Below, piece after piece: positions 31,304 to 36,777 of a DNA stretch of 41,224 bases. The notes beneath the pieces were generated by a model, which worked only from the letters and a program-made list of their open reading frames with translations, did not search any database and was not told where the DNA came from. Position 1 is the first letter of the stretch; each line of letters opens with the position of its first letter. This DNA comes from Bacillota bacterium (GTDB lineage: Bacteria; Bacillota; Sulfobacillia; Sulfobacillales; Sulfobacillaceae), in assembly GCA_021798975.1 (NCBI GenBank), contig JAJZBJ010000009.1, forward strand, positions 1 to 41,224. Reading direction: 5' to 3'. The position numbers were made by a program, and so were the translations under genes.

Positions 31304-31518
31304 TTCTCCCGTGAAAAGAAAAGATTTTTTGTCGCCAAAAATCTACATAACTTTGCAGGAATTTTTCTTCGTCTGTAGAAGTGTACGAGCGAGGTAGGAT
31401 GAAGCATGTATCCTGCTTCGCGCGAATACAGCCTTACTAGACCGAGTGAGCTATCAGGCAAGGGGTCTTGAAGGTTGTTTTGTGTGTGTTACGAGTCTCG
31501 CAGAAGGAGGAAGATAAA

Positions 31519-32166
31519 TTGGACAACACGCCGGAACGTGGTCAGTCGGTCCCCAGCGAAGCTCCTGAAGAAATGCGCTGGAGTCGGCGCCAATTTATCT
31601 GGGGTACCGCCGGCGCTGCCGTAGTCGGCACCGCGACCTTGTTTGGTCATGGTGTGATTGCGAATGCGGCCCGCGGTGTCTTTGGTTCTCCGGTTTCTAC
31701 CGGGCTCATTCACGTCTACCAAGAGGACTTTTATTTCGTCCCCAACTACATGACCTGGCGTGTCGGTGACAAAATGACGCTTCGGCTCCACAACATGAGC
31801 CTGACGCGTTATCACGAGATGCAGCTAGGTCGGGATGTGAGCACCGAGAATACCGTGTTTGGAACCTTAACAGCGGACGGTTTTACCAAGGACTTCTGGG
31901 AAGGGGTGCACGTTACCGCATCCAGTCCTTACCTGATTGACAACTTCGTCACCAACAAGGCCATCATGACCTTCGAGGGGCCGAAGAGCGCCTTCCAGTT
32001 GGCGACCGGCGGAGGATTTAGTCCGACGCTCAAGCCCGGGGGAAGTATCGATCTCAGTTTCACGGTTCCTGACAAGCCTGGTATTTGGCACTACGGGTGA
32101 TTTGTGCAACACGCCGCTCATTGGCGTTTCGGGATGCGTGGCATCCTCAACGTAGTGCGGGCCTAA
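31519..32166 (+). CDS. Tat-exported cupredoxin with an in-frame TGA at the type-1 Cu Cys position (32098-32100); readthrough frame ends at TAA 32164-32166
   Basis: GGAGGAAG then TTG start; SRRQFIWGTAGAAVVGTATLFGHG Tat signal; ...LSFTVPDKPGIWHYG-[TGA]-FVQHAAHWRFGMRGILNVVRA*. Confidence 0.65.
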
Positions 32167-32214: not shown

Positions 32215-33039
32215 ATGGCTAATATGGTTCTGTTTGGAGTCCTGTGGATTGTGATTTCGCTGCTCGGCGAGTGGGGAGTCACAGCTTGGATTAATTCTGC
32301 CCCTAACGGGACAGGACCATACTTTGGTTCGTTTTCGAACTTGGGCATTATCGGGGCCGGCGCCTTTGACTTCTTGCTGTGGGTCGCGGTGCCGATCTTT
32401 GTGTTCGTCGTACTGATGTTGGTCTTCGCCATGATTCGGTTCCGCGTCAAGAAGGGCGAAACGCCTGACGAGGCCAAGAACCAGAGCCGGGTGAACAAGA
32501 CTTTTATCGGTATCTGGGTGGTGGCCAGCATTCTGGTCAACATCTTGATTTGGCTGCACCCCAACGCCAGCGGTTTAGAGCAGGTGTTCGCGGCACAGAA
32601 AGTGACGGCCAAACAACATCCGCTGATTGTTGACGTGACCGCTCGTCAATGGGAATGGATTTTCAGCTATCCCCAATATGGGATCTCCCAAGCGGTGAAC
32701 TCGCAGGGTGACGACGTGCTCTACTTGCCGGTGAACCGTCCGGTTAAGTTTGTGCTCCAGTCGTTTGACCCGTTCCACACCTACGACTACCAAGTCGATG
32801 TGATTCACAGCTTCTGGATTCCCGGATTTGGCGTGAAGCAGGACGTGGTTCCGGGTGAGACCCGCACGCTGGTTCTCACACCGACTCAGATTACGTCCAC
32901 CGAAAAGAACCCCATGGTTCGTGTGCAGTGCGCCGAAGACTGCGGACCCGGTCACCCGTACATGGAGGCCAACGTCCACGTAGTGAGCGCCAGTGCGTTT
33001 GCTCAGTGGGCCAAGGCTCAAGCCGCGGGAGGGTCTTAA
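32215..33039 (+). CDS. ctaC: Cytochrome c oxidase subunit II
   Basis: CuA site QCAEDCGPGHPYM (Cx3Cx3Hx2M), HSFWIPGFGVKQDVVPG. Confidence 0.95.
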   Translation: MANMVLFGVLWIVISLLGEWGVTAWINSAPNGTGPYFGSFSNLGIIGAGAFDFLLWVAVPIFVFVVLMLVFAMIRFRVKKGETPDEAKNQSRVNKTFIGIWVVASILVNILIWLHPNASGLEQVFAAQKVTAKQHPLIVDVTARQWEWIFSYPQYGISQAVNSQGDDVLYLPVNRPVKFVLQSFDPFHTYDYQVDVIHSFWIPGFGVKQDVVPGETRTLVLTPTQITSTEKNPMVRVQCAEDCGPGHPYMEANVHVVSASAFAQWAKAQAAGGS

Positions 33040-33087: not shown

Positions 33088-34965
33088 ATGGCGCAACGCG
33101 CTTCGGTAGAGGTTAAGACCTCCACTCCCGTCGCCCCTGACCGCCGCATGATGCCTCCGGTATTGCGCGCGCTGCTGTTCGCGGCGATCGGGTTTGTAGT
33201 TCTTGATGCTCTCACCGTTTTGCTGGACTACAGCCCGCAATCCCCGTATCTCAGTCAAACGGGAGCGGTAGCAGGCTGGTTCGGAGCCTTAGTGGGCTGG
33301 CTTCTCGGGATCGGCGGCTACGAGCATATCATTAAGCCGATGCTCGGTTTCGACGACCCGGGTTACAAGCAAGTCGGCTGGCGGCGCTTTTTCCAGTTGG
33401 CTGACGACCACAAGGTCATCGGCGTTCAATATCTGGTGTTCTCGACCGGTACGTTCTTGATTGCAGGTCTCGTGGCGATGGCTATGCGCTTCCAGCTTAT
33501 GTCCTGGCAGCCGACCATCTTCCAGTACCCGCAGAGCTACCTGAACGCGGTTGGTATCCACGGTACCCTGATGATGTTTACAGTGGCGACTGTGGCGATG
33601 TTCGGCGGACTCGGGAACTACATGGTGCCGCTCATGATTGGCGCCAAGGAAACCGTGTTCTCCAAGGCCTCTGGAATTGGCGTGTGGCTGGTTCCAGTCG
33701 GTGTGTTGACCGTGGCATTCAGTCCCTTGTTGGGGGCGTGGACGACCGGATGGCGTGGATACGAGCCGTTGGCCGCTTCGGACGGCGTCGGCATGTTGTA
33801 CTACTATCTGGGCGTTTTCGCGTTGACCCTGTCCTCGTTGATTGTGGCCCTCAACTTGGTGACGACCATTCTCTTCAAGCGCACCAAGGGTTTGACCTGG
33901 AATCGGCTGCCCCTCTTCGTGTGGGGTATTTTGACGGTCTCTTTGCTGACCGTTATCTGGTTCCCGGAAATTCAGACCACCTTCTTGCTGGCCTTGACCG
34001 ACAAGATGGCCATGTTGAACATGTTTAACGGCCTCGGTCATGCGCTGGGATTCTCGGAGTTCTTCTGGCTGTTCGGTCACCCCGAGGTGTACATCGTCGT
34101 GGTGCCGGCGTTGGCCATGTGGAACGAAATTATCCCGGTCTTTACCCGCAAGTCGTTGTTCGCGCGGCCGATGGCTGTGCTGGGCTTGGTGTTCGTGATG
34201 ATGCTGAGTGGTATGGTCTGGGCTCACCACATGTTCACCAACATGCGGTACAGTGAAATGCTGCCGTTTTCCTTCTTCACGGAGATGATCTCCATTCCCA
34301 CCGGGTTTGCATACTTGGCGGCCATCGGGACCATCTGGAACTCGCGCATGCGTTTGACAACCCCGATGTTGTTGGTCTTGATGAGTATGTTCAATTTCCT
34401 CATCGGTGGTTTGACTGGATTGTTCGTCGCGGACGTACCGGCTAACCTGCAGCTGCACAACACCTTCTTCGTGGTCGGACACTTCCACTTCACCATTATT
34501 GGTGGGATGGTGTTCAGCTGGATGGCTGCTATGTACTACTGGCTGCCGAAGTTCTCGGGCCGGACCTACAACGAGTTCTGGGGCAAGTTCGGGGCCATCT
34601 GGGTATTCGTGGCCTTCAACGCGACCTTCCTGAACTTCTTCATTCTGGGTCTGCACGGCATGAACCGGTGGGTCAGCGCATATCCGAAATACCTCCAGCC
34701 GGAAAACTTCTGGACCTCCATTGCGGCCTTCTTCCTCGGTGCGGGATTTGGCATCAACCTTATCCACATCGTTTGGGCGTGGGTCAAGGGACCCAAGGTT
34801 CAGGAAAACCCCTGGCAGGCCAAGACTCTGGAGTGGCAGACATCCTCGCCGCCGCCGCGTTACAACTTCGAGGAGCTTCCGGTTGTCGTCGCTGGGTTCT
34901 ACAACTACGGCGAGGGCGCTCCGGAACCCGTGATTGTTGCAAAGCAGGCCGGTACTCAAGCTTAA
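33088..34965 (+). CDS. ctaD: Cytochrome c oxidase subunit I
   Basis: HGTLMMF, WLFGHPEVYIVVVPA, GHFHFTIIGG, many TMs. Confidence 0.97.
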   Translation: MAQRASVEVKTSTPVAPDRRMMPPVLRALLFAAIGFVVLDALTVLLDYSPQSPYLSQTGAVAGWFGALVGWLLGIGGYEHIIKPMLGFDDPGYKQVGWRRFFQLADDHKVIGVQYLVFSTGTFLIAGLVAMAMRFQLMSWQPTIFQYPQSYLNAVGIHGTLMMFTVATVAMFGGLGNYMVPLMIGAKETVFSKASGIGVWLVPVGVLTVAFSPLLGAWTTGWRGYEPLAASDGVGMLYYYLGVFALTLSSLIVALNLVTTILFKRTKGLTWNRLPLFVWGILTVSLLTVIWFPEIQTTFLLALTDKMAMLNMFNGLGHALGFSEFFWLFGHPEVYIVVVPALAMWNEIIPVFTRKSLFARPMAVLGLVFVMMLSGMVWAHHMFTNMRYSEMLPFSFFTEMISIPTGFAYLAAIGTIWNSRMRLTTPMLLVLMSMFNFLIGGLTGLFVADVPANLQLHNTFFVVGHFHFTIIGGMVFSWMAAMYYWLPKFSGRTYNEFWGKFGAIWVFVAFNATFLNFFILGLHGMNRWVSAYPKYLQPENFWTSIAAFFLGAGFGINLIHIVWAWVKGPKVQENPWQAKTLEWQTSSPPPRYNFEELPVVVAGFYNYGEGAPEPVIVAKQAGTQA

Positions 34966-34996: not shown

Positions 34997-35557
34997 ATGG
35001 CGATACAAAAGACTCGCGGCGAAATGGAAGACATGCGTGCCATTCGCACAGGTTTCGGGATATTTCTCGCCAGCCTCAGTGTGATGTTGGTCACCTTGGT
35101 TGCCGCGCGTTACCTGACAGCCGGATCGACGGTGGGTCCGTACAGCCAATGGCTGGGCGCGATTACCACGCTGTTCATGCTGATTAGCGGCTTCGCCGCC
35201 CGGTCGGCGCGAACGGCCATCGTTCGCGGCAACAATCAGGCGATGCAGAGTCGTCTCGGTCTCGGATTCTGGTTCGGCGTTCTGACGGTAGCAGCGGTTC
35301 TTCTGCAGTGGATACTGCTGAACAACCAAGGTGTTCCAGTCACACTGCCTGCCGCAGAGGTGTACTATGTACTTACGGGAATATGGATGCTTCTTGCCGT
35401 GGTCTCGGGATTTGTACTGTACGCTTCGAAGGCGCGTGGACGCCGTATTGGCGGATACACCGTGGATAACCACTGGGATGTAGACGCAGCCACGTATTTC
35501 TGGACTTGGACAGCGATGGGCTGGATTGTCCTCTACATCGTGCTGTACTTCATTTGA
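34997..35557 (+). CDS. Cytochrome c oxidase subunit III-like protein
   Basis: Position after subunit I; C-terminal VDNHWDVDAATYFWTWTAMGWIVLYIVLYFI. Confidence 0.8.
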   Translation: MAIQKTRGEMEDMRAIRTGFGIFLASLSVMLVTLVAARYLTAGSTVGPYSQWLGAITTLFMLISGFAARSARTAIVRGNNQAMQSRLGLGFWFGVLTVAAVLLQWILLNNQGVPVTLPAAEVYYVLTGIWMLLAVVSGFVLYASKARGRRIGGYTVDNHWDVDAATYFWTWTAMGWIVLYIVLYFI

Positions 35558-35898: not shown

Positions 35899-36777
35899 GT
35901 GTGTCAGCCCATGATGAAACGGGTTAACGAGACAATACGTGCGTACACAGAGCTCATGAAGCCCGGCATTGTGCTGTGGCTTCTGATTACGGCGTATTGT
36001 GCGATGGTTGTGGCCCATCACGGACTACCGCCGATCGGGCAAACAATCTTTACCCTGGTCGGGCTGGGACTGTCTGCCGGTGGCGCCCATGCGGTCAACA
36101 TGTGGTATGACCGAGACATCGACCAAATTATGAAGCGGACTCGGCGACGTCCAATCGTGACCGGCCGCGTACGGCCTCAAGATGCTCTCATTTTCGGTAT
36201 TGCCTGCGGCGTGGTGGCGTTCCTAGGAATGGGCCTTCTGGTTAACTGGCTGGCCGCAGCATCATCTTTGGCTGGATATTTATTCTATGTGTTTGTCTAC
36301 ACCATCTGGCTGAAGCGCCGTTCGGCTCAAAACATTGTCATCGGCGGAGCCGCGGGCGCGTTCCCGCCCATTGTGGGCTGGGCTGGCGCGACGGGCCACT
36401 TGGGCATTGCCCCGGGATTGATGTTTCTCTTAATCTTTATGTGGACTCCACCGCATTTTTGGGCACTGGCGCTGTACAAGCAGGATGACTACCGCAACGC
36501 CAAGATTCCCATGATGCCGATTGTCCGTGGGGCGTCGACGACCAAGGTGCAAAGTTTGGTGTATGCCGTGTTGTCGGTGGCGGTGTCGGTGATGCTGTAT
36601 TTGACCCATACGGTCAGCCAGGTGTACTTGGTAGCCGCGCTGGTGCTGGGCGTGACATTCGTCATGTACAACATTCAGCTCTTGCGGGAACCGGCGGATG
36701 AACTGCGTTGGGCCAAGCGGACGTTCCGGTTTTCCCTGATTTATATCGCAGCACTGTTTGTGGCGATGGTTGTTTGA
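35899..36777 (+). CDS. ctaB: Protoheme IX farnesyltransferase
   Basis: NMWYDRDIDQIMKRTRRRPIVTGRV, WTPPHFWALALYKQDDYRNAKIPMMPIVRG. Confidence 0.95.
   Translation: MCQPMMKRVNETIRAYTELMKPGIVLWLLITAYCAMVVAHHGLPPIGQTIFTLVGLGLSAGGAHAVNMWYDRDIDQIMKRTRRRPIVTGRVRPQDALIFGIACGVVAFLGMGLLVNWLAAASSLAGYLFYVFVYTIWLKRRSAQNIVIGGAAGAFPPIVGWAGATGHLGIAPGLMFLLIFMWTPPHFWALALYKQDDYRNAKIPMMPIVRGASTTKVQSLVYAVLSVAVSVMLYLTHTVSQVYLVAALVLGVTFVMYNIQLLREPADELRWAKRTFRFSLIYIAALFVAMVV

Follow-up and report, generated by a model that had tools for sequence, protein, structure and literature searches.

The window, i.e., the whole stretch of 41,224 nucleotides analyzed here, carries a cytochrome c oxidase cluster in which CoxII, CoxI and CoxIII are directly preceded by a gene with an in-frame UGA codon (Table 1). 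This gene starts with a TTG codon, with the sequence AAGGAGG ahead of it at positions 31504-31510, and ends with a TAA stop codon at 32164-32166. When TGA is translated as selenocysteine (Sec, U), the product has 215 residues, with U at position 194, and its C-terminal sequence reads WHYG-U-FVQHAAHWRFGMRGILNVVRA. The protein has a twin-arginine motif followed by a hydrophobic helix, and this motif suggests that it is exported via Tat. The UbiA prenyltransferase encoded further downstream is, from its gene context, probably CtaB, the haem O synthase. The arrangement is recurrent: CoxII and CoxI are found downstream of the cupredoxin gene in 15 of the 15 loci that we compared, usually together with CoxIII and CtaB.

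Table 1. Features of the cupredoxin locus (positions in the window).
Feature	Position	Strand	Evidence
AcoP-type cupredoxin gene, in-frame UGA	31519..32166	+	Translation with TGA=U; homology through and past the UGA; match to AcoP in PDB
Twin-arginine motif SRRQF, followed by hydrophobic helix	31582..31596	+	Sequence; predicted helix 23-55
His99, predicted first copper ligand (AcoP H85)	31813..31815	+	Invariant in 21 homologues; phmmer alignment; PMC4059628
UGA codon 194, at the position of the invariant Cys ligand (AcoP C159)	32098..32100	+	C194 column; UGA/Cys alternation among orthologues
Hairpin A, 5-bp stem, 7-nt loop, spacing 15 nt	32111..32127	+	Sequence, folding, comparison of orthologues
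His201, predicted copper ligand (AcoP H166)	32119..32121	+	Alignment with AcoP; conservation in homologues
Hairpin B, 7-bp stem (6 Watson-Crick pairs and G-U), GUG loop, spacing 37 nt	32131..32147	+	Folding; model limits (PMC13188914)
Met206, predicted axial copper ligand (AcoP M171), codon inside hairpin B	32134..32136	+	Alignment; conservation
CoxII, CuA-type motif (CAEDCGPGHPYM)	32215..33039	+	Pfam COX2; sequence
CoxI	33088..34965	+	Pfam COX1
CoxIII, ordinary UGA stop	34997..35557	+	Pfam COX3, slightly below cut-off; stop codons
UbiA prenyltransferase, ordinary UGA stop	35899..36777	+	Pfam UbiA; stop codons

Searches of Pfam and NCBIfam returned no family for the protein, and its identity came from a search of the PDB. 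Its nearest solved relative is AcoP (phmmer, 5.2e-18), the green cupredoxin of Acidithiobacillus ferrooxidans (PDB 7z3b, 7z3f; PMC4059628). The AlphaFold model has a mean pLDDT of 77, with values mostly above 90 in the core and below 50 in residues 1-54, and the predicted fold matches AcoP (7z3i and 7z3b) with a Foldseek probability of 1.00 and a TM score of 0.85 on the target. The copper of AcoP is bound by H85 and by the ligands of the loop C159-X6-H166-X4-M171 (PMC4059628). This four-ligand pattern (H, C-X6-H-X4-M) is kept in the window protein: H99, H201 and M206 are conserved, and the position of the Cys is occupied by the Sec codon, U194. With UGA read as Cys, this column is an invariant Cys in the 21 aligned homologues. 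The two proteins also share a single-domain organization, an N-terminal membrane or export segment and a location of the gene within a cytochrome c oxidase cluster. They differ in the Sec codon at the position of Cys159, and their identity across the aligned fold is about 28%. By sequence, predicted fold, ligands and operon, we assign the protein to the AcoP type of cupredoxins. Sulfobacillus homologues of AcoP were already pointed out in PMC4059628, a paper in which selenium goes unmentioned.

We compared orthologues of the gene. Among the 11 that we found, five have the in-frame UGA and six have a Cys codon (TGT or TGC) in its place. The UGA is found in the window genome (G000), in Sulfobacillus harzensis DSM 109850 (G005) and in G006, G008 and G028. 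These five assemblies are separate and represent three genera; one of the assemblies is from an isolate, at ~111x coverage. Cys is found in G001, G009, G011, G017, G018 and G035. A phylum-wide search gave no UGA-bearing cupredoxins beyond these five. Homology runs on past the UGA, the tail with His201 and Met206 stays conserved, and the codons 3' of the UGA are more constrained than those elsewhere in the gene. In the cupredoxin tree, in which several branches are weakly supported and the direction of change is not fixed, the UGA and Cys states are interleaved and imply at least four changes, only two of which are forced by strongly supported branches. Hence, there seems to have been repeated exchange between Sec and Cys. 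A second AcoP gene, of the Cys type, is present in the window genome (C15:14259-14870) and in S. harzensis. In the latter it sits in another cox cluster, so that Sec and Cys versions would coexist in one cell.

Two hairpins lie just downstream of the UGA. They had been described as SECIS-like in an earlier reading of the sequence only, and we found them at the letters and coordinates it had given. Hairpin A is made of ACGCC (32111-32115), the loop GCTCATT (32116-32122) and GGCGT (32123-32127); hairpin B is made of GGATGC (32132-32137), the loop GTG (32138-32140) and GCATCC (32141-32146). The description of the stem of B as a perfect one of 6 bp was right about the six pairs and left out a G-U pair (32131/32147), which brings the stem to 7 bp. 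Similarly, the distances of 16 and 38 nt are correct as positions of the first loop base. We define the spacing as the number of bases between the UGA and the first loop base, i.e., 15 for A and 37 for B. Neither hairpin is followed by a U-tract, as had been noted. Folded alone, hairpin A has an energy of -7.0 kcal/mol, equalled by 6 of 200 shuffles, and hairpin B one of -9.1 kcal/mol, equalled by none of 200. We rejected an unusual stability of the whole 63-nt stretch after the UGA (z of -0.26). When the stretch was recoded synonymously, keeping the peptide and the local codon usage, the five pairs of hairpin A arose in 7% of the cases, the seven pairs of hairpin B in 17% and any SECIS conforming to the model in 17%. 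Hence, the hairpins of one sequence could be due to chance, their significance in a single sequence was rejected, and a comparison across orthologues was needed. What stands above chance is the conservation among UGA-bearing orthologues. A scan of the region with Rfam returned nothing relevant.

The published limits for bacterial SECIS elements (bSECIS) are a stem of 4-16 bp, an MFE of -7.5 or lower, a spacing of 16-37 nt and a loop with G followed by G or U (PMC13188914). Hairpin B lies within these limits in all five UGA genes, with a GUG loop, 7-11 bp, -8.7 to -13.0 kcal/mol and a spacing of 37. A scan with the same limits matched 5/5 UGA genes against 1/13 Cys homologues, a contrast with a hypergeometric probability of ~0.0007 under an independence that these sequences do not have. 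The lone match with Cys is G001, where hairpin B is intact. This genome is close to UGA-bearing species, and the retention of hairpin B is thus as expected after a recent change from Sec to Cys. In G017, which has Cys and is close to the UGA-bearing G028, the stem of hairpin B includes wobble pairs and the loop is GGG. The hairpin is broken in three other orthologues with Cys (G018, G009 and G011). With its 3-nt loop starting with G-U, its 7-bp stem, an MFE below -7.5 and a spacing within 16-37 nt, hairpin B shares the features of the bSECIS consensus (PMC13188914) and is a plausible member of this class.

The codons that make up hairpin B are frozen in the UGA-bearing genes. Its degenerate third bases (codons GGG, CGT, GGC and NTC) are identical at 4/4 positions across four UGA lineages, compared with 22/173 outside the first 15 codons after the UGA (Fisher p=0.0004, for lineages that share ancestry and comprise five UGA genes in all). 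Among the orthologues with Cys, 0-1 of these four bases are frozen. CGT accounts for a minority of the Arg codons here (14%), yet it is present in all five UGA genes, where it keeps the U in the loop of hairpin B. Variation returns just outside the hairpin, at codons +9, +10, +16, +17 and +18. Since hairpin B had been named in the sequence-only reading before this test, the interval was not picked post hoc. Six of its seven pairs never vary among the five related UGA genes and one shows a U-A/U-G exchange; compensatory double changes were not found within this set.

The SECIS elements of SelD and FdhA in the same genomes have their loops at 16-20 nt from the UGA, with GGA, GGC or AGGA in most SelD genes and GGUCU in FdhA. 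By comparison, hairpin B is at the upper limit of spacing, which speaks against it, and has a GUG loop instead of GGUCU or GGA/GGC. Across the group, SelD and FdhA have an in-frame UGA followed by a SECIS at short spacing. The SelD hairpin keeps a near-constant position while its stem and loop vary. These elements provide a good reference set for a SECIS model of the lineage.

It is conceivable, if rather doubtful, that Sec decoding depends on an extended or composite RNA, in which hairpin A folds and draws B nearer or in which B tops a long, irregular stem, and that neither of the two is enough alone. With A folded, ~20 nt plus a helix would separate the UGA from the loop of B, which is near the norm of the lineage, and the MFE folds of G000, G006 and G008 place B atop an irregular stem. 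However, the folds of the orthologues disagree, as A and B are separate in G005 and G028, and there is no covariation for the lower stem.

An unlikely alternative is that hairpin A is the SECIS read by SelB, and that hairpin B has no role of its own or belongs to a longer stem. The sequence-only reading leaned this way from distance, placing A in the usual range and B at its far edge. Hairpin B is indeed at the edge, since 37 nt is the upper limit, and A, at 15 nt, misses the published range by 1 nt. This spacing is nevertheless closer to what SelD and FdhA show (16-20 nt), G is the first loop base of A in each of the five UGA genes, and RNAalifold, run on the UGA genes, predicts A and B together. 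Against this, the second base of the loop is C or A, the energies (-7.0 to -7.3 kcal/mol) and the spacing are outside the published limits, the base of the stem is broken in G028, and 1/5 third bases are frozen among the UGA lineages, i.e., there is no signal. Most of the shape of hairpin A follows from the Ala..Trp-Arg codons, and several Cys homologues keep part of it. Hairpin A may be an accessory element.

The proposed bacterial SECIS-like geometry is borne out for hairpin B in every UGA orthologue and fails for A on spacing, MFE and loop, and it is B that fits the bSECIS model and carries the signature of conservation. None of the five UGA genes lacks both hairpins, a case that the sequence-only reading had suggested looking for. 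We regard it as probable that hairpin B, alone or with A, is the SECIS element.

The window genome encodes SelA, SelB, a tRNASec with a UCA anticodon and SelD, whose gene has its own in-frame UGA. It also encodes a formate dehydrogenase FdhA with an in-frame UGA, with the classic GGUCU SECIS in relatives; Sec-containing formate dehydrogenases were reported in all Sulfobacillus genomes (PMC4378227). In G028, an assembly that is 71% complete, SelA was not found and there was no strong match to tRNASec. The in-frame UGA of the cupredoxin gene, as first read, is an internal sense codon in a genome with the full Sec machinery. UGA is an ordinary stop codon in 6 of the 24 window ORFs examined, including the neighboring CoxIII and CtaB. 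A genome-wide reassignment of UGA was rejected, since ordinary genes terminate at this codon.

In principle, a suppressor tRNA could insert Cys or some other standard amino acid at the UGA, which would make the hairpins irrelevant. In favor of this, the homologues have Cys at this site, and one further tRNA of the genome resembles tRNASec and bears features of Cys identity. However, the anticodon of this tRNA is GCA, ordinary UGA stops abound, and the full Sec apparatus is present together with other selenoprotein genes with UGA. Searches for a suppressor in G000 (incomplete) and S. harzensis gave UCA only on tRNASec, the sole tRNA with this anticodon among the 44 isoacceptors read in S. harzensis. 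Decoding by a Cys-tRNA, the other refuting case named in the sequence-only reading, is hence very improbable. The idea that the UGA is a true stop, arose by nonsense mutation or reflects an error in sequencing, with a decaying tail, agrees with the standard code, which ends the ORF there, and is hardly credible given the UGA common to the five assemblies and the constrained tail with its ligands. The shared UGA, the Sec apparatus, the ordinary UGA stops and the restriction of UCA to tRNASec in S. harzensis thus make nonsense, sequencing error, reassignment and a Cys suppressor all unlikely, and together they leave selenocysteine insertion as by far the best reading.

The tRNAs of the group show some peculiarities of their own. 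The tRNASec-like tRNA of the window genome (contig C159:32600-32690) has a D stem of 6 bp with a 4-nt loop, a long variable arm and a U before CCA as in tRNACys, and is conserved in at least 10 genomes of the group. G000 carries an ordinary tRNACys(GCA) besides. The tRNASec-like form is probably a minor tRNACys mimicking tRNASec. In S. harzensis, a copy of tRNASec (contig C357:18460-18610) has its 5' part swapped for unrelated sequence, and the intact tRNASec is on contig C33. In G001, where the cupredoxin carries Cys, there are two tRNASec matches of unlike sequence above the family cut-off (one at C73:140550-140710), in addition to the GCA variant. Contamination of this assembly (6%) is one possible reason for the double matches.

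We estimate a probability of about 0.86 that a SECIS downstream of the UGA directs the insertion of Sec there. For the insertion step, the comparison of orthologues gives strong support. We infer that SelB brings Sec-tRNASec to the UGA at 32098, prompted by a SECIS just downstream, most likely hairpin B, to which it would bind. Hairpin A possibly helps by compacting the unusually long spacer, as the loop of B would then be ~20 nt plus a helix away from the UGA. The product would be a Tat-exported AcoP-type cupredoxin in which selenium ligates the copper, the ligands being His99, Sec194, His201 and Met206. Made together with the cytochrome c oxidase, it would presumably handle electrons beside CuA, as proposed for AcoP.

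Each of the classes involved is already known, and what is new is their combination: a bSECIS-type hairpin and a Sec codon in an AcoP-type cupredoxin. There is no cupredoxin among the 119 families of prokaryotic selenoproteins in an inventory of May 2026. We found no natural selenocysteine cupredoxin, azurin or rusticyanin in the open-licence literature, and there may be a report that we have not seen. Cys is the defining ligand of type 1 copper sites, and Sec replaces it in semisynthetic selenocysteine azurin. The swap is the same as the one predicted here, but azurin was engineered in the laboratory, whereas the cupredoxin would, if real, be natural and genetically encoded. Sec is also a metal ligand in FdhA (Mo/W) and in [NiFeSe] hydrogenase (Ni) (PMC13188914). 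These differ in metal, fold and reaction from the protein predicted here, which would bind copper and carry electrons, after export, in an aerobic chain.

With a standard gene caller, the gene would end at the copper loop and lack three of the four ligands. The comparison of hairpins A and B provides a test case for SECIS recognition at long spacing, with the SelD and FdhA elements of the same genomes as references. We think it likely that aerobic acidophiles encode here a respiratory cupredoxin with a natural Sec-ligated mononuclear copper center, that its SECIS, perhaps one made of two hairpins, lies as far from the UGA as the published range allows, and that Sec and Cys were switched repeatedly as one cox operon diversified. 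If this is true, there are natural Sec/Cys pairs, in the cox operon of sister species and in the copies within S. harzensis, that could be compared for potential and rate of electron transfer, and selenium biology would come to include electron carriers that use copper and would reach into the aerobic respiratory chain of acidophiles.
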